Source: Marchantia polymorpha subsp. ruderalis (lineage: Eukaryota; Streptophyta; Marchantiopsida; Marchantiales; Marchantiaceae). Taken from it: a DNA stretch of 64,000 bases. Under the pieces are notes generated by a model. It had not been told where the DNA came from. It searched no databases and saw nothing but the letters and a program-made list of their open reading frames with translations. Shown here one piece after another: positions 18,064 to 48,810 of this stretch (positions are counted from its first letter, which is position 1; every line of letters begins with the position of its first letter). The stretch lies in the NCBI GenBank assembly GCA_037833965.1, contig AP031354.1:12440001-12504000 (forward strand), read 5' to 3'. The translations under genes and the position numbers were made by a program.

Positions 18064-19603
18064 TGTTCGCTACGTAGAATATGTTCGCATCATTTCTCCC
18101 CATTTGACAAATTTGTCTTCGTTGGAAGTTTTTAACAGCTCTGATATTCTAGTGCCCAGCTCTCAACGCTTATATCAAATTTCACCTCGAAGACATCGTC
18201 TGTGATTTTACTGAAGAAAACAGTAATTTTGGTTACAAGAAGATTCATGAACTGACATCTGCCTCATTCATAGGAATTTGCTATACAATAGTATCACGGG
18301 ACCAGATCTGCCTCCAAATTATCGTCAAACTCAAACGCAAGAGTCTTATCTGCAATCAGTGTATGTTCTATTACTTAAGCTTCGTACTGTATAGAGTATC
18401 CTTTACTTCTTCAACTTTACCTTTGAACTACTCTCTGATGTATACATTCATCATATGATGCGAACGACTGTAAGGACCTGAGTCCGGATGTATTGAAGAT
18501 GCGAACATGCTATTTTGTTTGGTAATTATAAGCGGAAAGTTAATCATGACAATTATAATGGCGGGATTCCTTAGATTGGAAGTGGAGTAACACTATTGCA
18601 AGAGACTAAGTTCGAATTCCTGACAAGTTTTTCTTTATCGTGTGTCAACAGAGCTTTATCCGTGATCAACTTTCAAGGAGGTTTTTCAAAGTCCTGACTT
18701 GACTTATATTTCACATATAAGTGAAATAAAACTGTCACCGTATTTCGGAGTGCTCAGATAGAATTCTAGATGTAAAACTTTGTTAATCTATCAATCTTAC
18801 TTGAATGTTTGTATATATATCTGCTCAGGAATGATACATTTCCTGGGCAGGATATATTTTCAGAATCTAACGCAATTGTAAGTACAGATGTTACAAACCA
18901 TCTAGATCCAGAAAGCAGAGTTTACATTCTGTTAGTGACATCCTTTTTCCCAAAAACCGAGGATGATTCTTACTTACAGCTACTCCAAAACCTAAAAAAG
19001 CACAATACCTATGTGATGTTTTCTTCTTTCGTTAGACTTTTAACTAATTAACATTTCGTATTAGACTGATTAGAGATTAGTGTCTTCGAAGATTTTCGAA
19101 AATCTGTATCTGCAACAAGATGTGAAAAATCCACGCTTAGAGGAGAAGAACATGTTCGGAACATCCAAAGTACATGTTTTTTCCAACTTCCAACTTGGTA
19201 CTTAAAGGTGGCTGGACAACAACTTCACTGGATTACCAAGATCTATTAGAAAGAAGTTTGGAGCAAATGTCATGTAATTTGGCACATATCAGGTACCGGA
19301 GTCGACAGTTATTTCAAATTCTCCAAATATAGAGAGTTCAGGTGGCTTGCGGAAATACTCTACGTTTCATTTCTTGTAGATTCGCAAACAACACCTTTGT
19401 AAGGATCATAGTCGACGATGGTGCAAGCACAGAATCAGCTAGTCTGCCTATTTGAGGGATTATCGGAACCGCCACTGGTGGACGAGTGTTCTTCCTGGCA
19501 GTCCTGGTTATATTGCTGCTCGTGTATAGAAAAAGGACGATGGAAACAAACCATTTCTCGAAAGGTAGGAAATGGTCAGATCACTTTTCGGTTGTCACGT
19601 CTT

Positions 19604-20446
19604 GTCACGTCAGCATGTGGTCGATAACAAACCCTAGTGTCCTGTACAAATTCAGCTGACACGAATCCCAAACCGAACCGTGCAGTCGCTTATATGTGAA
19701 CAAGATATAGAACTATGCCACTTTGAGTCTGTCAACGATAGTCGCTTTCACTTTATTGCAGTTTATCAGTCTTCTTCTTCATGCGAGTATTATCTGAGCT
19801 TGTATGTTCTGAAGATCAGAATCCGTCAACTCAGATTAACCAGTGCTACATTCATTGAATCAGAGAACAATCCCAGGTCTAGTCACATCAGCATGTGGTC
19901 GATAACAAACCCTAGTGTCCTGTACAAATTCAGCTGACACGAATCCCAAACCGAACCGTGAGTCACTTATAAGTAAACAAGATATAGAGTCATGCCACTT
20001 TGAGACTGTCAATGATAGAAGTCGCTTTCACTTTATCGCAGTTTGTCAGTCTTCTTCTTCTTCATGCAAGTAATATCTGAGCTTGTATGTTCTGAAGACC
20101 CGAATATGTTAACTCAGATAAACCAGTGCTACATTCACTGAATCAGAGGACATGCCGAAGTCTAGTCACGTCAGCGTGTAGTCGATAACATACCCCAGTG
20201 TCCTGTACAAATTTAGCTCACACGACTCCCAAAGCGAACTGAGCAGTCAATTACGTGTAAACAAGATATAGAACCATGCCACTTGGAGTCTCCGTCAATA
20301 ATAGAGGTCACTTTCACTTTATTGCAGTTTGTCAGTCTTCTTCTTCATGCAAGTAATATCTTACCTTGTATGTTCTGAATTCCAGAATTCGTTAACTCGG
20401 ATTTACCAGTGCTACATTCATTGAATCAGAGGATATGCCCAAGTCA
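19604..20446. repeat. Three tandem copies of a ~280-bp unit
   Basis: Units start at 19604, 19882 and 20165 (spacings 278 and 283 bp). Each begins gtcac(g/a)tcagc and runs through gtgtcctgtacaaatt, caagatatagaa/gt and gtcttcttcttcatgc to gaatcagag. They occupy the place where the kinase N-lobe should be, just after the transmembrane exon. I see no protein motif in the unit. Confidence 0.9.
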
Positions 20447-24830: not shown

Positions 24831-27190
24831 ATGGCTAATGAGAAGGCAATTGAGATGATGCTCAAGTATATGTATACCCTGAAGACGAAAATCTTCGCTG
24901 ATCTGCAGAAATAGTGCGTTCTCTATTGTGGAATGAAGAACCTCAAAGTGAGGGCGGGGATTTGGTCATTGTTCTTGTTTGTTGCCTTCAAGGAGACTGG
25001 CAAGCAGCTTCGCTATAACAAGTCTTTTGTCTGTTGCAACAAATGACTCACTGTTTGTCAATACAAACCGGCCAATAGAACCATCATCATGTCAAAACAC
25101 TCTTGTGCTCCTGTAGAGACCAACCAAATGATGACAACAACAATGATGCAAGTACAACTAGAAATAAACTCATCACCGTAGCCTTGGCTGACATGTGTGT
25201 CGTTGACATGAGTCCATTTCATATTGTGAAGGGCAACGGCTTCAGAAACTATACGTAGATCATCTTGAACACCGGCATCAACTTGAAAGTCGGCATGTGT
25301 GTGGACAACTTTCTTCCTCATCACACCACAATCAGTAGAAATGTGCAGATCCAATCTACTTCTGGACGTGAGTCATTGACTGTCGTCTTGGAGGCGCATC
25401 TGGTTGAAGAGATTTTGATTGGCAGCACAACCGATATGTGAACTGATGACATTAATAAGGTATCTTTCCCATCGATCATTGCACACCTCATTGATGACAA
25501 GTTCACTCTGCACCGGTGCACGTTGGCATGTAACCTATTCCCTTGGCCGCAGCATGAGTCCGACGTCTTGGAGAAATACGAAGGCCTTTTACTGAAATTT
25601 GGCATCAATAGTTATGATGCGGTCACGGTTGTCACCGATAGCGCCTTAAATATGCACTCTGCAGATGACATTCCCAGCCTCTATGATTGAATAACGTGTT
25701 GTGATCACATCATTGATACCATCCTTACGTCGTTTTTCGACAAAGGGACTCGTATGCTCAACGTTAAAATATTGTCTCCCTTCTATGAGTAATACGATCT
25801 AGCCCTTGAGAGGTTCGACACGATTGATCACATCAAAGCTTTCAAGGCATATTTCTAAGAAGCAAATCTTCAAAATGAGCTCGCAAAGATCCTCAAGTAG
25901 GAGAATGCGATGTGATGAAATTTTGCCCTTTGTTGTATGATCAGCATCAAAGGAGCACTCTCGGAGTAAAATCGAGATCCTGCGTGCACGAGGCGGCGGA
26001 TTGGTTTCCAAGGCCATCAAGATCAATCACGAGCTTCTCAAGAAGTTCATCGTCTATCTCGTGCACTTTCAAGACGCCTTTCTAGCTCTGAAAGTGTTTG
26101 CGGAGCCTATGCTACATTGTGTTTTCTACTTCAGGAAAAATTTGTTGAAGCATTGGCAAGTCGTCACGACGGATATCTCCATCAAGAAGAAAGATGGCAC
26201 GATAACCACATTGAAGAAGTATCCTCCCGCATTTGTCGTCTTGAAACCAAAATTTGCCAAACTGATCAGGCAAAAGTTTGTTTGACTATCACCACCAAGG
26301 ACAAAGATGGCACGATAACCACATTGAAGAAGTGTCCTCCCGCATTTGTCGTCTTGAACCCAAAATTTGCCAAACTGATCAAGCAAAAGTTTGTTTGACT
26401 ATCACCACCAAGGAGAAAGATGGCATGAAAATCACATTGAAGAAGGACACTCCCGCAGTTGCCGTCTTGACACAAAAATTTGCCAAACTGATCGAGCAAA
26501 AGTTTGTTTGGATATCACCACCAAGGAGAAAGATGACATGATAACCACATTGAAGAAGTACACTCCCGCATTCGTCATCTTGACACCAAAATATTTTGAA
26601 TTGATCGAGCAGAAGTTTGTTTAGAGTGACATCCATGTCATTGACGTCTTACTCAACCCCAAAACCAAAAGTCATCTCGACAAGTTCAGCATTGATTTCA
26701 CTGAAATCCAGCTCGGCAAAAAAAATCTGGAAAACATGACAAAGTATCATATGGTGCGCCACTCCATTGATGACCACGACAAGGTGCGACCCCATAAGAG
26801 TTAAAAGTAGAACAATCGACGCGTCTTCCCACCGAATGCAATTTTGAGAGCGATAGCACCATTGACTATAATACCTTCGCCAACAACATGTTGCGTGATT
26901 TTGTTTTGATGACGGAATTCAACAACTCCGTTTGCCATAAGTGCAGTAACGATGAAAGCACCCACTTATCTAAATACGGAAATTTATTTTGATGAAAGAT
27001 ACATGGGATTGAATACCACATTCTTTCTTGAGTAGCTTGCTCTGTGTTGGTTATTCCAGCGTCAAGCGTGTTTTTGGAGAACAATTTTCCAGAAGCAAGA
27101 AACACCATGAACAAGAAGCGCAACCAGTTGTAATCCTCCAACCTTGACGATCTCATGTTCCTGCATTCAATAATGGTGTCGCCAATGATC
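24831..27190 (+). pseudogene. hAT transposase pseudogene (BED finger, DDE core, dimerisation domain)
   Basis: Pieces in order: MANEKAIEMMLKYMYTLK start; a BED-type finger near 24949-25085 (IWSLFLFVAFKETGKQLRY, FVCC, MSKHSC); a core segment near 25450-25720 (HLIDDKFTLHRCT, INSYDAVTVVTDSALNM, then CCDHIIDTIL, the usual D and C-x-x-H region). Then comes a helical insert (LLKKFIVYLVHFQDAFLALKVF) near 26030, VLLNPKTKSHLDKF near 26650, and the dimerisation block ACSVLVIPASSVFLENNF with NLDDLMFLHS at about 27030-27180. At least eight in-frame stops and a 113-bp tandem expansion break it. When intact, such enzymes cut and paste their own element. Confidence 0.8.
26191..26642 (+). repeat. 113-bp tandem array, four copies
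   Basis: The phrase aagatggcacgataaccac or a close variant starts at 26191, 26304, 26417 and 26530, an exact 113-bp period. Because 113 is not a multiple of three, successive copies are read in successive frames, so overlapping ORFs appear on both strands. The unit encodes, in one frame, TITTLKK then FVVLKPKFAKLI, a transposase segment. The array arose inside the hAT gene after or while it lost function. Confidence 0.93.
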
Positions 27191-32432: not shown

Positions 32433-34034
32433 GAGTGAATATTATAACCATGGTATGTATCTCACAAGCACACAATTCGTGGGCATGGCTTGGGTTCGGG
32501 TATAAATGTCAAGTGCAATGCAGGCCTAGCATCTCCACCATCCAATGTTTCATCAACTCAATGTTATATGGTGCTAGTTTGGCTTGGGTCTTGTATAATA
32601 AATATGTGTTTTTATAATTCTTTGATATTGAATATAATAATAATTATTTATAATTTAAGTTTAAAAATATACAAGATGGATCATTATTGGATAAATAAGA
32701 TAATGGATATGTAAGTAAGATTCATGATTATAACAATCAGCAGTTTCACAAATGGGAATTCTGCAATTTTATTCTGGTGTTTCTCAATTGTATGCCGAAC
32801 TGCGCAGCCCTGTATCAGACACCTTATATTCCAACTCACTGAAATACTTCACAAACAGTTTACACAAGTACCACTTACAACCACTTATGAAATAAAATTT
32901 CTCAAACCTAAAAAAATGCACAACGATACCTCTTTGAAAGCATAAATCAAAACACCTCAGTGCATCTATAAGAGTGCAATTTTAAATTGCATGAACTTAG
33001 AAACCGCCCTGGGCGATGTGGATCTAGTCCGCTTTAATAAGCCTTTCTGGAACTAGAGACTTTAGATACATTGGAAAGTCAAGGGAGATGGATAATAAAT
33101 TCCGAAAGAAACATCATTCTCCATCATAACATCATAAATCTTCAGTTTCCAGATGCGACTGTTAAAATTTCGAATCAATCACCTAAAATATAGTCGCAAA
33201 GAATTTTACGGCTCTGTTTGGACGTCGGCATCAGGGAGACGTCCAAGGCGTTGTTTCCATCTAATGAATTTTACGGCGAATTTTACGGCGTTTACGACTG
33301 AATTATCGGCGTTTAACACCAAATAAATCGTTCCTACCCGCGCAGAGTTGCAATTTGTGTAACGTTTAAGGGATTTCAAGCCTACTGCGGACCAGAGGAT
33401 AATAACTGCGCAGACCCCTTCGCACTGCGCACTTACTCGGTCGGGTCTTGTGGCAGGGTGACGAGGAATGACAACTTCAGCCACGTGGCAAGGCTCTTCG
33501 GCCATTCGGCCATGCGACCAAACTGCTCTGTTCCTGCCTTCTTCCGTCTCCAAGCCCCCAACTGTTCTCCAAAGCAACATTGGCCTGCAATCTTTGCTGC
33601 AGAGTCCTCGAATTGGGCCCCCACTCATCGGAGTTTTTTCTTCGCCTGACGAATTTCTGCGTGTTCCGATCGGACAGGCCGAGAATTCTTATCTCCATGC
33701 CTACTGCTGCGGATGTAATGCTTCAGGTTGTACCCATTAATCTGTCGGAGTGTGTTGCAGATCGTGGCGTTCGTTCCTCCATATCACGATCAGGGGAGAG
33801 GTTTGTGATGGCTGCTCTGTCCGTGTTGCATTCTAGGAGCGGGAACTTAAAATCAATGTCTTTTGGCGTCCTCAATGCCAGGGCTTGTGAGGAACTTTCT
33901 TTCTGAGCGAGTGGGTGCTTCTCCGAAACGAATTAACGAGCGATCGGTGGTGACAACCATGATGAATCTGGACGGAGGACGAGAAGAGATTGAAGAACAA
34001 CTGAATCTCAAGATTTTTTACGAGCAAAGATCCA
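32433..34034. other. Spacer leading to the mosaic ORF; GC rises after 33200
   Basis: 32433-33200 is AT-rich with a ttgggttcgggta motif. From about 33200 the base composition becomes richer in GC. The block at 33209-33300 starts ggctctgtttggacg, as some plant MITE ends do, and repeats gaattttacggcg. Open frames on both strands between 33206 and 33906 overlap heavily and show no family. The 5' region of the downstream gene probably lies here, but no clear TATA box was found. Confidence 0.4.
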
Positions 34035-37000
34035 ATGAAGCCCTCAGTGGAAAGTATCGTTGCTCGGAGGCGGAGGCTGTCCAGCGAGTACGATGCCAAG
34101 CACGGAATCGTGAGGAAGGAGGATGTTTTTCGCCCTGCACCGCAAGTCCCTTCATCAGCCATTTCAGATTCGTCTCCCGTCCCCCTCCATGGCCCAGAAT
34201 ATGGAACAGCAGTGGCGGATCCCAGGACGCAAGGAAGTTCAAGTGGATTTGGAGTTGATGCTGCCAGTCCACAACACCTCGGAAACGGGCAGGAGGATAT
34301 TTGCCACACACCCAAATTCGACATGAAGCTTCCATCCTTCGAAGATATCGTCGCCCGAAGGCGAAGGCAGCCGGATTCTTCAGATTCTCAGCCAGGGGAT
34401 ATTGCAGAGAGAGACGCCGAAGAATGGGAAGCTGCCACGCCGGCGCTGATACGAGCACTCGAAGCAGCTGGGTGCTGCGCCACACCTCGAACATCTGGCG
34501 CTCGTAGGCGGAGTCTGGACAGTTTCGCTCCTCCCCTGGAATTCGATATCGACGAATTTGCTTCGGATGACAGCACTGAAGGCAATTATGGGCAGCCTTA
34601 TGCACGAGGTGAAGGAAGGAAGGAAGGGGTGGAACAAACGAACTCATCGTCGCAGCTGGAACGAGAGTCTAGGACCAACCCAACGCAGGCCACTCCAAGT
34701 GCCGAGGCCGAACATGTGCACGAGTACACGAAGAAATCTGAGATTGAAGAGCGAATTGAAGGTTCCGTGTCGCATTTTCTGCCTCCAAGAAATTGTCCCG
34801 TTGTCAGGCAGCAGAAGCAGGAAAGGTGCACGGGTTCTGGGCTGGGGCGCCACATGTATGTGGTACCTCCTCCGAGACGTCGTGTGGAGTTGTCTGAATA
34901 TTTCGTAGGGGAGGTGGTGATTGTCAAACGAGACAGGCACGTCTGGGTGTTCGGCCAGGTGAAGATGCTGGGCTGGACAGGGATCAAGGTGTGGGTTCCA
35001 AGTGTGGCGATTATGGTGAACGTCCCCCTGGAGATTATGTATACTCACTTGAGAAAGCTGGAGGACGAGGAGCTGCAGAAGAAGTCAGAGTTGGCAATTC
35101 CTCGAGGATCGGCAGAGGACGACGAAGACGAGCAAGATCGGATACCACTTCCTGCAACATTTCACCGGAGGAAAGACCTGGTGATCGCATCTCGCAAGCC
35201 CCCTACAAATTCAACACAGGTGCATCTTGTGAGACCAGCACACCTGGCTCACAGAACCCTCTATCAACCTTTCAAATCATCAGTCTCATGCACCATATGC
35301 TTCCAGCTCATGTCACTCATGGATGCCCACAAGCCTTGGGGTTGTGCCCATTCCTGCCACTTGTTCTGCTATGAGCTTTTTGTTCAGAGCACCAGCTCCA
35401 CTACATGCAACACCTGTTCCACCGGTAAAACGTGGGACTGGAAAATAATCTCTTGCAAATGCGGATTCTCAGGATTTGTGCGTAAAAAAGTGGACGATTT
35501 AGATCCGCCTCCAGTGTGTCCATCGTGTCTTAAGCTCACACCTAGACTCATCCCTTACCAAGCTGCTCCCACCAGAGTATCACAACCAGAGTCCAGACCG
35601 AGCACAGGAGCTACCAGCTCCAGCAGCAATCCGGGTGGATTGACGACAACAGCCTCTCAGGCATCTGATTCCAGCTCGGAAACTTGGGCTACAGAAGCGG
35701 TAATCAAGTTACCTAGACACGCAATAAACATAGACGATTCGGAATGGAGGCGAGTGGAATGCGATTGTGGACTGCAGGCGACGCTCAGAGCGGATGCGGA
35801 TCCCAGCAAGCCCCTAATTTGCCCAGCCTGCTCTGTCCAGATAACGAAGTGGATCATACCCAGCAGAGACGATCTCCTCAAATCTCTTTTGGGGTACACC
35901 CCGCTAGACTCACCTACTTCTGGTTCTTCGCCCGCTTACTCTTGTTCATCGCAACCAGTTTCTCCTCTTCCCCTCCCAAAAATCAAAACTCCCGCATCAT
36001 CGGACTTTTCATTGTTTGATGGCTTGAAACGTCAAAGGGAATCTCCATCCAAGTTATTGGCACCGATAAATACTCCTTCGTCCAGGCTGAGTTCTCCTTC
36101 ATGTGTTCTCCTTCATGCATCGGCCTTCATGTGTTGGTTTTGTGGGGCCTCTAGCAGTGAGGACCACTTGATATCTTACTCTAGTCAGAGAGTAGATAGT
36201 CAGTCTTCGGATCCTGAGGTTGAGGATGGTGGTGTGGACCAGCGTGATGTTCACGATGATGCGTTGGTGTTGGAGTTCCTACGGACCAGTATGGTGCCAG
36301 GCACAGTGGGTGCCAAGGAGCGAGATCGTGTTCTCCAGAGGGCGAAGAGATATCGATTGGAGGGAGCACATGTTCTCCGAGTGTGGGAGGACGGTAGGGT
36401 ACGGGTAGTACCGCATCCAACTCAGAGAGCACGCATTGTGAGGCATGCTCATGAGGAGTTGGGACATTTTGGAGTGAAGCGTACGTACAGCTTACTCCTA
36501 GGTCAGTATTGGTGGCGTGGTATGCATACGCAGGTGCAGCAGTTGGTATCACGTTGCATGGTTTGTGATCGAGTGAGGGCATCGTTCAATGCCCCGACAC
36601 CAGAGTTACATCCCTTACCTATCATGGGATTGGGTTACCGTTGGAGTTTGGACTTTGCTGGACCACTACCTTTGACTACACGACATCATCGGTATGTGTT
36701 GGTGATGGTGGAGCATTTCTCCAAGTGGATTGAGTTGGTGGCATTACCTGACAAGGCGAGTGAGGGAGTAGCATATGCTTTCCTTGACAGGGTGCTTAGT
36801 CACTTTGGTGCACCAGCTGAGGTGTTGACCGATCAGGGGACAGAGTTTCAGGGTGAGTTTCAGGTCTTGTGTGACAAGACACTGATTGATCACCGGACTA
36901 CTTCCCGAGATCATCCAGAGGCGGATGGTTTGGCTGAGCGGATGGTACAGACGGTGAAGAGAGCGTTGCGCAAGTATGGCCTACAGAAGGGGCATCTTGG

Positions 37001-37454
37001 GGACTGGGATATTCAGTTACCATGGTTGGCCATGGGATATCGATTCAGTCGTCAAGCATCCTTGGCTTCGTTTTCACCATATTTTCTATTGTACGGCCGA
37101 GATCCAGACTTGCCTGCAGCGATTCGTCGTGAGTCTAGCGAGGTGGTGAACCTTGATGATCCAGATATGTGGGTGAGAGTGTGTTCTCAACGTGCAGTGC
37201 TCTTTCGGAGAGTTATGCCTGCAGCGTTTGAGAACCTTGCGATTGCTCAGCACCGAGATACGTTGCGGTATGCAACTATTCGAGGAGGAGGTTATCGACC
37301 ATCGATTCGTAGGTTCCGCGTGGGAGACTACGTCTATCTACAGCAGACTGCACCGACTACGTTGGATGTGACGGCAGGACGCACTATCCTGCGAGTGCGA
37401 GAGGTGTTACCTTCTGGAGTTCTCATGTTGGAGGGTCGTGACGGTGTCGTTTAG
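34035..37454 (+). CDS. Mosaic ORF: unknown zinc-ribbon protein joined to Ty3/gypsy integrase
   Basis: This is one open frame of 1139 codons. Residues 1-700 are unknown. They begin with KPSVESIVARRRR and, near residue 97, a second copy (LPSFEDIVARRRR). A conserved-looking stretch near 285-345 (YFVGEVVIVKRDRHVWVFGQ) resembles a small beta-barrel module. Cys pairs near 419-502 (CTIC, CNTC, CKCG, CPSC) and 576-601 (CDCG, CPAC) suggest zinc ribbons. From about residue 715 the sequence is Ty3/gypsy: an HHCC zinc finger (about 804-844), then the integrase core with Asp near 873, Asp near 933 and Glu near 968 (35-residue spacing). No reverse transcriptase or protease is present. It may be an element-encoded protein of unusual build, or a host gene fused to an integrase fossil. 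The start ATG is the first in frame and is unproven. Confidence 0.6.
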   Translation: MKPSVESIVARRRRLSSEYDAKHGIVRKEDVFRPAPQVPSSAISDSSPVPLHGPEYGTAVADPRTQGSSSGFGVDAASPQHLGNGQEDICHTPKFDMKLPSFEDIVARRRRQPDSSDSQPGDIAERDAEEWEAATPALIRALEAAGCCATPRTSGARRRSLDSFAPPLEFDIDEFASDDSTEGNYGQPYARGEGRKEGVEQTNSSSQLERESRTNPTQATPSAEAEHVHEYTKKSEIEERIEGSVSHFLPPRNCPVVRQQKQERCTGSGLGRHMYVVPPPRRRVELSEYFVGEVVIVKRDRHVWVFGQVKMLGWTGIKVWVPSVAIMVNVPLEIMYTHLRKLEDEELQKKSELAIPRGSAEDDEDEQDRIPLPATFHRRKDLVIASRKPPTNSTQVHLVRPAHLAHRTLYQPFKSSVSCTICFQLMSLMDAHKPWGCAHSCHLFCYELFVQSTSSTTCNTCSTGKTWDWKIISCKCGFSGFVRKKVDDLDPPPVCPSCLKLTPRLIPYQAAPTRVSQPESRPSTGATSSSSNPGGLTTTASQASDSSSETWATEAVIKLPRHAINIDDSEWRRVECDCGLQATLRADADPSKPLICPACSVQITKWIIPSRDDLLKSLLGYTPLDSPTSGSSPAYSCSSQPVSPLPLPKIKTPASSDFSLFDGLKRQRESPSKLLAPINTPSSRLSSPSCVLLHASAFMCWFCGASSSEDHLISYSSQRVDSQSSDPEVEDGGVDQRDVHDDALVLEFLRTSMVPGTVGAKERDRVLQRAKRYRLEGAHVLRVWEDGRVRVVPHPTQRARIVRHAHEELGHFGVKRTYSLLLGQYWWRGMHTQVQQLVSRCMVCDRVRASFNAPTPELHPLPIMGLGYRWSLDFAGPLPLTTRHHRYVLVMVEHFSKWIELVALPDKASEGVAYAFLDRVLSHFGAPAEVLTDQGTEFQGEFQVLCDKTLIDHRTTSRDHPEADGLAERMVQTVKRALRKYGLQKGHLGDWDIQLPWLAMGYRFSRQASLASFSPYFLLYGRDPDLPAAIRRESSEVVNLDDPDMWVRVCSQRAVLFRRVMPAAFENLAIAQHRDTLRYATIRGGGYRPSIRRFRVGDYVYLQQTAPTTLDVTAGRTILRVREVLPSGVLMLEGRDGVV

Positions 37455-44606: not shown

Positions 44607-47600
44607 TCAGTACTTGGCAATAATCTTCTGAATCAAATCAACCGACATGTCTGTAACAGTTTTGATACCGTTTCCGATCTTCTCCATGACAGGACTCCCG
44701 GTTTTAGCATCTGAAGCTGATTCCAGGCTGTAGCTGTAAGTCTTCACGGCCTTGTCCAGGGTCACGTCGAGTGTTTGGAACTGAATGGTTGCAGAATTCT
44801 TCTGAGTAGGAATTAGAGCAATCAAGTCGAACGCCAGCCTGTCGATCACGGCCTCTAGACTCACGAGAGCGATCCGAATGGGCTCGAAGAAGGGAACCAT
44901 GGCGATGATGCCGTGCTTTCCGATGACAACATTGAGCAAGGCCTGGTGGACCTTCACGAATGTGGTGAGGGCGTCCACAACGAGCTGCGCATCTGCGTCT
45001 GGAAGCGGACCTGAGGTGACTCTATCCACTCGGACAATCCCTTCCGAGACTTTCTGGATGATCGTCGTGAATCCGGTGGCGATGACCACACCCTGCTGAG
45101 CTGCATTGAAAATGTTGATCTTCTCAGTCGCCACTCGGAGCTTGTCGGACATGTCTGTGACAGTCTTCAGTCCCTCGATGATCTTCGCCGTGGTGGCCGT
45201 GAGAGCGGCATCTGACTCGGCTGATTCCAGGCTGTAGCTGTAGGTCTTCACGGCCTTCTCCAGGGTGACGTCGAGCGTTTGGAACTGAATGGTTGCAGAG
45301 TTCTTCTGAGTAGGAATTAGAGCAATCAAGTCGAAGGCCAACCTGTCAATCACGGCTTCTAGACCCACGAGAGCGATCCTAATGGGCTCGAAGAACGGGA
45401 CCATGGCGACGATGCCGTGCTTTCCGATGACGACATTGAGCAAGGCTTGGTGGACCTTGACGAATGTGGTGAGGGCGTCGACAACGAGCTGCGCATCTGC
45501 GTCTGGAAGCGGACCTGAGGTGACCCTGTCGACTCTGACGATGCCCTCGGACACTTTCTGGATGATCGTGGTGAATCCGGTGGCAATGACCACACCCTGC
45601 TGAGGGGCATTGAAAATGTTGATCTTCTCAGTTGCGACTCGGAGCTTGTCGGACATGTCTGTGACAGTCTTCAGTCCCTCGATGATCTTCGCCGTGGTGG
45701 CGGTGAGAGCGGCATCTGATTCGGCTGATTCCAGGCTGTAGCTGTATGTCTTCACGGCCTTGTCCAGGGTGACGTCGAGCGTTTGGAACTGAATGGTTGC
45801 AGAGTTCTTCTGAGTAGGAATTAGAGCAATCAAGTCGAAGGCCAGCCTGTCGATCACGGCCTCTAGACCCACGAGAGCGATCCTAATGGGCTCGAAGAAG
45901 GGGACCATGGCCACAATGCCGTGCTTTCCTATGACCACGTTGAGTAAGGCTTGATGGACCTTGACGAATGTGGTGAGGGCGTCGACAACGAGCTGCGCAT
46001 CTGCGTCTGGAAGCGGACCTGAGGTGACTCTGTCGACTCTGACGATCCCCTCGGACACTTTCTGGATGATAGTCGTGAATCCGGTGGCGATGACCACACC
46101 CTGTTGGGCTGCGTTGAAAATGTTGATCTTCTCAGTTGCGATTCGGAGCTTGTCGGACATATCTGTGACAGTCGTCAGTCCCTCAATGATCTTCGCTGTG
46201 GTGGCGGTGAGAGCGGCATCTGATTCAGCTGATTCCAGGCTGTAGCTGTAGGTCTTCACGGCCTTGTCCAGAGTGACGTCGAGCGTTTGGAACTGAATGG
46301 TTGCAGAGTTCTTCTGAGTAGGAATTAGAGCAATCAAGTCGAACGCCAGTCTGTCGATCACGGCCTCTAGACTCACGAGAGCGATCCGAATGGGCTCGAA
46401 GAAGGGAACCATGGCGATGATACCGTGCTTTCCGATGACGACATTGAGCAAGGCTTGGTGGACCTTGACGAATGTGGTGAGGGCGTCCACAACGAGTTGC
46501 GCATCTGCGTCTGGAAGCGGACCTGAGGTGACTCTGTCCACTCGGACAATACCTTCCGAGACTTTCTGGATGATCGTCGTGAATCCGGTGGCGATGACCA
46601 CACCCTGTTGAGCTGCGTTGAAAATGTTGATCTTCTCAGTTGCGACTCGGAGCTTGTCGGACATATCTGTGACAGTCTTCAGTCCCTCGATGATCTTCGC
46701 CGTGGTGGCCGTGAGAGCGGCATCTGACTCGGCTGATTCCAGGCTGTAGCTGTAGGTCTTCACGGCCTTGTCCAGGGTGACGTCGAGCGTTTGGAACTGA
46801 ATGGTTGCAGAGTTCTTCTGAGTAGGAATTAGAGCAATCAAGTCGAACGCCAGCCTGTCGATCACGGCCTCTAGACTCACGAGAGCGATCCGAATGGGCT
46901 CGAAGAAGGGGACCATGGCGATGATGCCGTGCTTTCCGATGACAACATTGAGCAAGGCCTGGTGGACCTTGACGAATGTGGTGAGTGCGTCGACAACGAG
47001 CTGCGCATCGGCATCTGGAAGCGGACCTGAGGTGACTCTGTCGACTCTGATGATGCCCTCGGACACTTTCTGGATGATCGTGGTGAATCCGGTGGCGATG
47101 ACCACACCCTGCTGAGCTGCGTTGAATATGTTGATTTTCTCAGTCGCAACTCGGAGCTTGTCGGACATGTCTGTGACAGTCGTCAGCCCCTCGATGATCT
47201 TCGCCGTGGTGGCGGTGAGAGCAGCTTCTGATTCGGCTGATTCCAGGCTGTAGCTGTAGGTCTTCACGGCCTTGTCCAGGGTGACGTCGAGCGTTTGGAA
47301 CTGAATGGTTGCAGAGTTCTTCTGAGTAGGAATTAGAGCAATCAAGTCGAACGCCAGTCTGTCGATCACGGCCTCTAGACTCACGAGAGCGATCCGAATG
47401 GGCTCGAAGAAGGGAACCATGGCGATGATGCCGTGCTTTCCGATGACAACATTGAGCAAGGCCTGGTGCACCTTCACGAATGTGGTGAGGGCGTCGACAA
47501 CGAGCTGCGCATCTGCGTCTGGAAGCGGACCTGAGGTGACTCTGTCCACTCGGACAATCCCTTCCGAGACTTTCTGGATGATCGTTGTGAATCCGGTGGC

Positions 47601-48305
47601 GATGACAACACCCTGCTGAGCTGCGTTGAAAATGTTGATCTTCTCAGTCGCCACTCGGAGCTTGTCGGACATGTCTGTGACAGTCTTCAGTCCCTCGATG
47701 ATCTTCGCCGTGGTGGCCGTGAGAGCACCGTCTGATTCAGTTGTTCCCAAAGACATGCTGTACTTGCGCACGGCGTCTTGAAGGGTGTCATGGAGGTCAG
47801 CAAATTGCTTCTGTGCAGCTGGCCTTTGGGTTGGAATAAGCTGGACAATATCAGAGGCCAAGCTGCAGACAACGTCGTCCATATTCACAAGTGTCATCCT
47901 GATAGGATCGAAGGAGGCAATCATAGCTGGGAGCTCGGTCTTCTCGATGACAAGATGGAGCATTGCCTTGTGAACTTTAACAAATTCCTTGAGAGATTCC
48001 ACAACGAGGTTTGCGTCCGAGTCTGAGAGTGCAGGTAAAGTCTCAGTCTTCATCTTTTCGATGCCATGACCAATCTTGGCATTGATGGCTGCGAGTCCTT
48101 GAGCGATAGAGATGCCCTGCTGGGGGGCGTTGAACATGTCGATGTTCTCTGCTGCAATTCTCAACGTCTCGGCCGTATTTGTGACGTCCTTGAATCCATG
48201 CTGAATTCTCCGAGTGACAGTATCTCCGTTGGAAGAAGCCTGACCATGGTATAGTACCAAGGTAGACAAGAGCAGCAGAAAGACTGCCCTCGTAGACAAC
48301 GCCAT
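44607..48305 (-). CDS. Secreted protein with seven tandem HsbA-like domains
   Basis: 1232 codons, one exon. Residues 1-24 form a signal peptide (MALSTRAVFLLLLSTLVLYH, cleavage near GQA-SS). A diverged first domain (about 35-190) is followed by six 168-residue repeats starting at residues 191, 359, 527, 695, 863 and 1031. A 35-residue tail re-starts the motif. Each domain is all-helical in pattern: FNAAQQG, then LPDADAQLVVDALTTFV, then a segment ending LIALIPTQ and a helix to YSYSL. This matches the fungal hydrophobic-surface-binding protein A family, where the DADxQ motif, the A/IPxx turn and the alternating helices are usual. Fungal members are mostly secreted single-domain proteins; Aspergillus HsbA coats hydrophobic surfaces and recruits a cutinase. 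I infer a secreted surface-binding protein. The coding DNA is visibly GC-richer than its flanks. Transfer from a fungus is likely but unproven. Confidence 0.85.
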   Translation of the reverse strand: MALSTRAVFLLLLSTLVLYHGQASSNGDTVTRRIQHGFKDVTNTAETLRIAAENIDMFNAPQQGISIAQGLAAINAKIGHGIEKMKTETLPALSDSDANLVVESLKEFVKVHKAMLHLVIEKTELPAMIASFDPIRMTLVNMDDVVCSLASDIVQLIPTQRPAAQKQFADLHDTLQDAVRKYSMSLGTTESDGALTATTAKIIEGLKTVTDMSDKLRVATEKINIFNAAQQGVVIATGFTTIIQKVSEGIVRVDRVTSGPLPDADAQLVVDALTTFVKVHQALLNVVIGKHGIIAMVPFFEPIRIALVSLEAVIDRLAFDLIALIPTQKNSATIQFQTLDVTLDKAVKTYSYSLESAESEAALTATTAKIIEGLTTVTDMSDKLRVATEKINIFNAAQQGVVIATGFTTIIQKVSEGIIRVDRVTSGPLPDADAQLVVDALTTFVKVHQALLNVVIGKHGIIAMVPFFEPIRIALVSLEAVIDRLAFDLIALIPTQKNSATIQFQTLDVTLDKAVKTYSYSLESAESDAALTATTAKIIEGLKTVTDMSDKLRVATEKINIFNAAQQGVVIATGFTTIIQKVSEGIVRVDRVTSGPLPDADAQLVVDALTTFVKVHQALLNVVIGKHGIIAMVPFFEPIRIALVSLEAVIDRLAFDLIALIPTQKNSATIQFQTLDVTLDKAVKTYSYSLESAESDAALTATTAKIIEGLTTVTDMSDKLRIATEKINIFNAAQQGVVIATGFTTIIQKVSEGIVRVDRVTSGPLPDADAQLVVDALTTFVKVHQALLNVVIGKHGIVAMVPFFEPIRIALVGLEAVIDRLAFDLIALIPTQKNSATIQFQTLDVTLDKAVKTYSYSLESAESDAALTATTAKIIEGLKTVTDMSDKLRVATEKINIFNAPQQGVVIATGFTTIIQKVSEGIVRVDRVTSGPLPDADAQLVVDALTTFVKVHQALLNVVIGKHGIVAMVPFFEPIRIALVGLEAVIDRLAFDLIALIPTQKNSATIQFQTLDVTLEKAVKTYSYSLESAESDAALTATTAKIIEGLKTVTDMSDKLRVATEKINIFNAAQQGVVIATGFTTIIQKVSEGIVRVDRVTSGPLPDADAQLVVDALTTFVKVHQALLNVVIGKHGIIAMVPFFEPIRIALVSLEAVIDRLAFDLIALIPTQKNSATIQFQTLDVTLDKAVKTYSYSLESASDAKTGSPVMEKIGNGIKTVTDMSVDLIQKIIAKY
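44712..47735 (-). repeat. Six 504-bp coding repeats in the HsbA-like gene
   Basis: Repeat 1 is 47232-47735, 2 is 46728-47231, 3 is 46224-46727, 4 is 45720-46223, 5 is 45216-45719, and 6 is about 44712-45215. The period is exactly 504 bp and identity is high even at silent sites. Protein differences are few: KTVTD or TTVTD, NAAQQG or NAPQQG (repeat 5), HGIIAM or HGIVAM with VSLEA or VGLEA (repeats 4 and 5 share the latter). Shared patches between neighbours suggest recent duplication or conversion. Confidence 0.95.
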
Positions 48306-48345
48306 CTTGAGAGATGAACCTGCAATAGGAAAATAACGAGAAACA
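48306..48345 (-). promoter_or_regulatory. 5' UTR splice acceptor of the HsbA-like gene
   Basis: Read on the minus strand, a pyrimidine-rich run ttttcctattgcag ends 14 bases before the ATG (gttcatctctcaag, then ATGGCG). This is a good 3' splice site, so the 5' UTR probably contains an intron and the ATG is the first in its exon. The donor and promoter were not identified. Confidence 0.55.
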
Positions 48346-48558
48346 ATTTTAGTGTTGAAGCCGAGCCAAAATTAGACATTAGATGAAGCATGAGAAATGA
48401 GATTTTAAATCATAACCATGGCCAGCCACAGATCAAGACCATCCATGATTCCTCGAAACAAATTGTGCAAAAGCAGCTGACTGCTCTGATGTTTGCTATC
48501 ATATGGGATTCAAAGCTCGTGTATGCGTTCAATGTACGAAGTTTAAACGTGAAGCAGA

Positions 48559-48810
48559 ATGGAGAAAGTTGGGGATCCTTTACCAGAAGCTACTGAGCTT
48601 GCCATAGATCCAGGACTGGGAGAGAGAGAATGGGTCTGTCTGAATACAATGCTCTCTTTGAACGGTTCTTATACTTGGGACATTCACGAATCTGAAGGAG
48701 GTGCACGAGGAGTCCGTGGGACACTGCTGGTGCTGGTTATCACTAAATTGCAGTGGTTCAACACAGTACGAATGAATTGCAGTGATTTGGCCCCATGTGA
48801 TTTCCAGTAG
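48559..48810 (+). CDS. Unassigned ORF, 83 codons
   Basis: An open frame begins MEKVGDPLPEATELAIDPGL and ends APCDFQ. Composition looks protein-like and the DNA is less AT-rich than what follows. It ends at a ttccag that would serve as an acceptor. No family is recognised. It is divergently oriented relative to the HsbA-like gene. Confidence 0.2.
   Translation: MEKVGDPLPEATELAIDPGLGEREWVCLNTMLSLNGSYTWDIHESEGGARGVRGTLLVLVITKLQWFNTVRMNCSDLAPCDFQ

Follow-up and report, generated by a model that had tools for sequence, protein, structure and literature searches.

How did a domain of a fungal protein family come to stand seven times in a row in a gene of a liverwort, and what could such an array do there? 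The question is raised by an open reading frame on the minus strand, at positions 44607-48305, of a 64,000-nucleotide stretch of the Marchantia polymorpha subsp. ruderalis genome (assembly GCA_037833965.1, contig AP031354.1, positions 12,440,001 to 12,504,000). We refer to this whole stretch as the window. The frame encodes 1232 amino acids without an internal stop. A preliminary description, made from the sequence letters alone, had read it as a secreted plant protein built from seven domains of the fungal HsbA family. That the gene carries C166-type domains in a seven-unit array is, in our judgment, practically certain. The overall explanation that we somewhat favor is that it encodes a secreted seven-unit C166-type protein of fungal origin, which would act as a multivalent extracellular binder.

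The array gene and its family

The 1232 residues divide exactly into a leader of 25 amino acids, seven units of 168 amino acids and a tail of 31 amino acids, so the count of seven tandem domains given earlier was correct. The start of the gene lies further upstream. The annotated M. polymorpha protein MARPO_0112s0050 (P0002) is 100% identical to the window protein by best local alignment, and it begins with MASSVASGSSLK ahead of the first Met of the window frame. Splicing a short upstream exon to the array exon gives a protein of 1244 residues, with an N-terminus identical to that of P0002 over the 60 residues compared. The features of the gene are as follows.

48584-48605, minus strand: coding exon 1, 22 nt (MASSVAS plus 1 nt), source of the annotated start codon; after splicing, the N-terminus agrees with P0002 over the 60 residues compared
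48320-48583, minus strand: predicted intron, 264 nt, GTAAAG...TTGCAG, with GT..AG ends
44607-48319, minus strand: exon 2, holding the remaining leader, the seven units, the tail and the stop, from the open frame and the splice model
48231-48305, minus strand: leader, signal-like MALSTRAVFLLLLSTLVLYHGQASS, starting at the second in-frame Met; hydrophobic by reading of the sequence
47727-48230, minus strand: unit 1, a distinct class by unit comparison and tree, with the sole Cys of the protein
47223-47726, minus strand: unit 2, repeat class; C166 57.8 bits (cut-off 36.7), HsbA 25.4 bits (cut-off 33.5)
46719-47222, minus strand: unit 3, repeat class by unit comparison
46215-46718, minus strand: unit 4, repeat class by unit comparison
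45711-46214, minus strand: unit 5, repeat class by unit comparison
45207-45710, minus strand: unit 6, repeat class by unit comparison
44703-45206, minus strand: unit 7, repeat class by unit comparison
44607-44702, minus strand: 31-residue tail and stop, resembling the opening helix of one more, truncated unit (EKIGNGIKTVTDMS compared by eye with AKIIEGLKTVTDMS)

Units 2 to 7 are nearly the same protein six times over (pairwise identity 97% on average and never below 95%), and unit 1, which shares 44% of its residues with unit 2, is a class of its own. The DADAQ motif, the IPTQ turn and the late Tyr that had been pointed out beforehand are all found in the repeats. When the unit profile was run on the tail, it gave a partial match at 1206-1229 of P0001 with a score of about 0 bits. 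In the whole protein there is a single Cys, and both Trp and N-glycosylation sequons are absent. By the grand average of hydropathy, the repeat unit, which contains neither Cys nor Trp, is hydrophobic (+0.42) and unit 1 is not (-0.11). The leader suggests that the protein is probably secreted.

Family membership was judged by the curated Pfam cut-offs, which are 36.7 bits for C166 (PF17615) and 33.5 bits for HsbA (PF12296). Unit 2 passes the first with 57.8 bits and falls short of the second with 25.4 bits. Unit 1 stays below both (C166, 17.8 bits; HsbA, 21.6 bits), and we count it in the family because of its ties via the repeats and the relatives. The whole protein reaches an HsbA score of 95.4 bits solely by summing its seven units. 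By the curated cut-off, HsbA membership was rejected for the single units. Eight relatives were also scanned out of 59, including plant-like, fungal and metagenomic ones, and all eight pass the C166 cut-off and none the HsbA cut-off. The family named in the preliminary description was thus right as to a fungal-type domain, and the one-unit profile comparison places that domain in a related family, C166.

Precomputed labels in the protein databases, which use another Pfam version, give HsbA and not C166 for many of the relatives, so the border between the two families is a matter of release. Pfam describes C166 as of unknown function, and the names carried by the relatives are UVI-1, hydrophobic surface binding and galactomannoprotein. 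A profile-profile comparison of nine Marchantia units with 24 fungal relatives gave a probability of 99.8 and an E value of 3e-30 over 151 columns. Other families were considered and rejected. Of 21 further Pfam families matching the whole protein, four exceeded their cut-offs (Sina_TRAF, DUF6389, PSCyt2 and DUF5837); none of the 21 recurs with single units, and they are therefore taken as sums of weak matches over the repeats. NCBIfam gave one match, at 12.9 bits against a cut-off of 700 bits.

The closest fungal counterparts are small secreted C166 or UVI-1-like proteins such as LAJ45_08439 of Morchella importuna, where the likeness is one of sequence family. These proteins consist of a leader and a single unit of about 160 residues, and the Marchantia repeat unit is 55% identical to the Morchella protein. 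The Marchantia gene differs in having seven units, two unit classes, an intron and a plant host. HsbA of Aspergillus oryzae belongs to a similar family and is a protein of 14.4 kDa (PMC9394342), unlike the Marchantia protein with its seven units.

The coding part had been described as free of introns over 3.7 kb. This applies to the array exon; the gene as a whole has the 264-nt intron and the 22-nt coding exon upstream. A similar organization recurs at most of the paralogous arrays described below. An exon 1 and donor of like pattern, ATGGCAAGCTCA..CTG directly followed by GTRAAG, is present at nine of the 13 loci, a number in which the window gene and its identical duplicate are included. 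With this pattern none was found upstream of L031, L040 and L041, and L042 starts otherwise. The acceptor TTGCAG stands ahead of the ..LKM/LRM/LKR codons at 12 of the 13 loci, and L042 has CTGGCAG. The second in-frame Met reads Arg in the paralogues L032 and L035, and a further Met lies four codons on. P0002 has six full units and the window gene seven; the third unit of P0002 is one residue off window unit 3 and likewise one residue off unit 4. The difference in number may stem from unequal exchange or from a collapse in the draft assembly.

The preliminary description was also right that the gene is richer in guanine and cytosine (GC) than its flanks. The GC content is 0.536 in the frame and 0.535-0.551 in the three kilobases wholly within it, compared with 0.457 and 0.375 in the nearest kilobases wholly outside. 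The mixed kilobases at the edges have 0.432 and 0.441, and the whole window 0.403.

Paralogous arrays and constraint on the repeats

The window gene is not a single gene. The genome (241 Mb, nine contigs) was searched with the C166 profile, which found 73 repeat-class units, every one above the cut-off, at 13 loci. Eleven of these loci are on contig C5, between 8.47 and 12.49 Mb, and two are on C6. A search with unit 1 added 10 full copies and one partial copy of that class, for a total of 83 full units in the 13 array loci, with four to 10 per locus. The HsbA profile gave no match among 76 candidates in the same genome (control, 1 of 14), so an HsbA search alone would have overlooked the family.

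The paralogues vary in state. Unit 1 is absent from L032 and L035 and survives as a remnant in L040, and these three keep five to 10 repeats in open frame. The frame of L039 stops early, inside a partial unit, after seven full units. Identity of the window repeats to those of the main group is 84-86%, and to those of L042 it is 77%. Fungal contamination, which would have undone the claim of a plant gene, was ruled out by the spread of the 13 loci over two long contigs (31 and 33 Mb), by the 5' intron and by the same protein in Marchantia records; the array resides in the plant genome, as had been proposed.

One of the loci is an identical copy of the window gene. A segment of about 30.2 kb is present twice, at C5:12425760-12455995 and 54.18 kb further on, which in window coordinates corresponds to 1 to about 15995 and to about 39938 to beyond 64000. 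The two copies differ at seven of about 30,240 places (3/13,343 and 4/16,898 in two blocks). Over the 9 kb around the gene they are identical (0/9001 differences), and the second, identical gene copy lies outside the window.

The ratio of nonsynonymous to synonymous divergence (dN/dS) was calculated by the Nei-Gojobori method over the first 162 codons of the units. Among repeats within one gene, mean dN was 0.0009-0.020 and mean dS 0.05-0.32, giving a ratio of 0.018-0.096 at all 13 loci, the identical duplicate included. The window gene has a ratio of 0.037. When window unit 2 was compared with one repeat from each of seven other genes, dN/dS was 0.09-0.14, and unit 1 compared between five genes gave 0.32-0.64. 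Copying or conversion of recent date, if acting alone, would have erased the silent differences as well, so these values indicate that the repeat protein itself is held by selection and that unit 1 changes faster. If the reading holds, one unit of the array evolves freely beside almost invariant neighbors, a partition that the preliminary description did not include. Weighing on the other side, patchy gene conversion could account in part for silent divergence that goes with protein identity.

A recent tandem expansion of the window gene was ruled out by the silent-site differences between its repeats (dS 0.10-0.34). L031, L035, L040 and L041 contain some repeat pairs that are identical in DNA, so the growth of those arrays is partly younger. 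The arrays might instead be non-functional, spread by unequal exchange and kept uniform through gene conversion alone. The identical copy carried by the segmental duplication would suit this idea, as would the count of seven units in the window gene against six in P0002 and the stop that cuts the array of L039. We consider it very improbable, since in the window gene silent sites differ by up to 0.34 while the proteins are 95-100% identical, and conversion would erase silent differences too.

Relatives and the origin of the domain

Relatives were sought in protein databases with searches that need shared words of five residues and keep matches of 0.55-1.75 times the query length; absence from them is weak evidence, and long fungal arrays might escape. 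A first search for long proteins gave seven matches, all from M. polymorpha. The unit profile gave 59 matches and a broader profile 139, the best 120 of which are listed. Ten of these 120 are named as bryophytes, namely Physcomitrium patens, Sphagnum compactum, Ceratodon purpureus (three), Marchantia paleacea and M. polymorpha (four). Many are unnamed metagenome or read-archive proteins, and the remaining organism names among the 120 appear to be those of Ascomycota and Basidiomycota (Dikarya). Names of vascular plants, hornworts or algae do not occur among the 120. A one-pattern scan of prokaryote genomes gave no relative among 50 pattern matches.

Within this set, long arrays are found in M. 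polymorpha. At least three full units occur in eight of the 144 proteins examined, all from M. polymorpha and including the window protein; P0017 has three stretches, of which two are mere pieces. Sphagnum and Physcomitrium have two units per protein, Ceratodon has one, and the M. paleacea record has one and a piece. The two-unit proteins of S. compactum (P0069) and Physcomitrium (A0A7I4AQQ5, P0068) resemble the Marchantia gene in family and in having a leader followed by tandem units. Their two units are alike within each protein (93% and 92%), unlike the two-class array of Marchantia, so the doublings in mosses may be separate events. What is new here is that bryophytes harbor a fungal family, which in Marchantia forms long arrays of two unit classes; fungal genes in Marchantia as such are known. 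In the literature searched, no paper was found on this family in plants; lists of transferred genes in supplementary files may include these genes.

Two trees and five approximately unbiased (AU) tests were made. The first tree used 45 of the 59 proteins and 16 Marchantia units, with 14 proteins left out as short, broken or Marchantia duplicates. The second had 69 units, from 54 of 136 proteins and seven Marchantia units of four of the 13 loci, after stretches of about 100 profile positions or fewer were dropped. In the second tree, a split with support of 99/92 puts 15 named bryophyte rows and 28 metagenome rows together with Morchella and Sphaerosporella, apart from 22 other fungal rows and two metagenome rows. 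The metagenome rows on the main fungal side were P0060, P0063 and P0065 in the first tree and P0041 and P0042 in the second, and the latter two switched sides between the trees. The tree of single domains that the preliminary description proposed as a check thus separates the bryophytes, with these two fungi, from other fungi, and the AU tests are compatible with other arrangements.

From these data, a fungal origin of the bryophyte domain by horizontal transfer appears likely. As to direction, we prefer fungus to bryophyte, given that the family is present in many Dikarya and, as far as known, has a narrow range among plants. Vertical inheritance in land plants at large, named earlier as a finding that would speak against a fungal source, agrees with the data insofar as mosses and liverworts both have the domain; no other plant group is named among the best 120 of the 139 matches. 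Marchantia has other genes of this kind. Its microbial-type terpene synthases and its fungal fruit-body lectins are reported as transferred, and the synthases also as locally amplified (PMC12890914), and they differ in kind from the arrays, being enzymes and lectins. The word "hydrophobic" is absent from the main text of PMC12890914. If a transfer took place, the arrays would bring a class of non-enzymes into the set of fungal genes that have shaped bryophytes.

The domain would most likely have entered bryophytes before the split of mosses and liverworts, and the next stage would have been a two-unit protein with two unit classes. In Marchantia the second class alone would then have been amplified, to three to 10 repeats. 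The evidence for an early two-class stage comes from the Sphagnum-like metagenome proteins P0076 and P0077, whose first units form a group (100/96 in the second tree) with unit 1 of M. polymorpha and of M. paleacea. In the alignment, Marchantia unit 1 and the first unit of P0076 and P0077 have TVTxR..HG in common and, in most, EKMN. In P0077 the frame continues through an upstream stretch that ends in AGTSLDM, where the Marchantia counterparts have AGTYLKM and AGSSLKM. Because of this grouping, the shared residues and the upstream stretch, a two-class, two-unit gene is probably older than the moss-liverwort split. The S. compactum units share 86-90% of their residues with the second unit of P0076.

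Several results weigh against this history. Trees constrained to unite Marchantia units 1 and 2 in one clade (p 0.14), or the Sphagnum-like units in one (p 0.16), both pass the AU tests, so the early two-class split depends on the bootstrap and the shared residues. By identity, the first unit of P0076 is no closer to M. polymorpha unit 1 (44-48%) than to unit 2 (48%) or to Sphagnum units (55-57%); the unit 1 of M. paleacea, at 56%, is the sole one that it matches better than unit 2. Both P0076 and P0077 are metagenome proteins, and we infer their place in Sphagnum from likeness. At the larger scale, the tests reject neither one bryophyte clade (p 0.47, or 0.065 with the plant-like metagenome rows) nor one clade of named fungi (p 0.48), so several orders are allowed as to the donor and the number of transfers.

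There may have been no single transfer from fungus to plant. The domain could be an old eukaryotic one lost in most plants, a plant gene could have passed into Pezizomycetes, or several exchanges could have occurred. The position of Morchella and Sphaerosporella among bryophyte and metagenome rows would fit such histories, as would AU tests that agree with several orders. Ceratodon P0082 is 75% identical to Morchella P0028, and Ceratodon is 57% identical to Physcomitrium. More than one exchange is therefore possible, and the likeness between Ceratodon and Morchella possibly reflects a later one. As a group, these alternatives seem doubtful given the many Dikarya among the matches, the absence of other plant names noted above and the empty prokaryote scan.

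Possible function of the arrays and other features of the window

Under the preferred reading of a transferred fungal domain, each unit would fold into a small bundle of amphipathic helices with affinity for a long acyl chain or some other hydrophobic surface in the extracellular space. The near-identical repeats would supply avidity or capacity, and the faster-changing unit 1 would be an end adaptor. Binding to acyl chains or surfaces is proposed on the strength of reports on fungal domains that are presumably related. HsbA attaches to polymer and recruits cutinase (PMC9394342). Ligands of Mp1-type domains are arachidonic or palmitic acid; in Yarrowia, secreted proteins take part in extracellular fatty acid binding, and their predicted helical models are like Mp1 domains with one of these acids bound (PMC9526294). 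By analogy, the binding of lipids or hydrophobic surfaces by the Marchantia arrays seems reasonably plausible.

The ligand-binding domains of Mp1 from Talaromyces marneffei might share a mode of action with the Marchantia units, holding a fatty acid in a helical bundle (PMC9526294). Two relatives of the Marchantia protein, P0110 and P0116, are named cell wall galactomannoprotein. Presumably Mp1 belongs with the proteins of that name. The Marchantia units differ from Mp1 domains in having no useful sequence match to any solved chain.

The evidence on the fold points partly the other way. Helical periodicity at 100 degrees was significant (p<0.05) in four of 17 overlapping stretches, which fits amphipathic helices without proving a fold, and the other 13 did not have it. 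Two residues of the repeat, H87 and K97 in the numbering of unit 2, hardly vary. When solved structures were searched by sequence, the weak matches were designed coiled coils, spike fragments and other unrelated chains, with no Mp1-type domain among them. Since no structure match was useful, the link to Mp1-type lipid binders comes from family names and the literature.

Another possible explanation, already raised in the preliminary description, is that the arrays are a surface coat or adhesive. They would line the thallus surface, the rhizoid, or the gemma or mucilage interface through attachment to cuticle or wax and would carry no single lipids. The hydrophobic, multivalent repeats would suit such a role, as would the attachment of HsbA to a hydrophobic polymer (PMC9394342). 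We find this rather unlikely, as the unit fits C166 better than HsbA and a protein with one Cys is not expected to form a disulfide-linked coat.

Less likely still is a defense protein, in which a fungal surface protein has been turned on fungi and rivals HsbA-like proteins at the cuticle or binds microbial lipids. Defense has been proposed for other transferred fungal-type genes of Marchantia (PMC12890914). In Venturia, most HsbA genes peak early in infection and are co-expressed with cutinase genes (PMC9632046). The faster change of unit 1, compared with the repeats, is what an interaction surface might show. The repeats are strongly constrained and not diversifying, however, and six Marchantia gene identifiers were not found in the literature searched.

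A bolder version of the lipid-binding proposal may be entertained, though we think it improbable. Burnt ground is colonized by morels, Sphaerosporella, Ceratodon and Marchantia, which would bring the partners together. Arachidonic and eicosapentaenoic acids occur in Marchantia and are absent from most angiosperm tissues (PMC13364333). Bryophytes might have adopted a fungal lipid-binding domain suited to these long-chain polyunsaturated acids of their own, which the extracellular arrays of Marchantia would store, shuttle or sense, and the exchange with Pezizales was perhaps repeated. If the secreted multivalent binder that we favor is real, a fungal domain for binding surfaces or lipids has become an extracellular plant protein in long arrays under strong selection. 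Its host is a tractable model plant, in which the function could be tested directly by gene removal.

The rest of the window was surveyed through its open frames of at least 170 amino acids, eight in number, a list that would not reveal normal intron-bearing genes. The sole other very long frame, at 34005-37454 on the plus strand, has 1149 amino acids with integrase zinc-binding and integrase core domains and is of retroelement type. Two tandem arrays lie at 19599-20445 (a 283-base unit in three copies) and at 26174-26622 (a 113-base unit in four copies).

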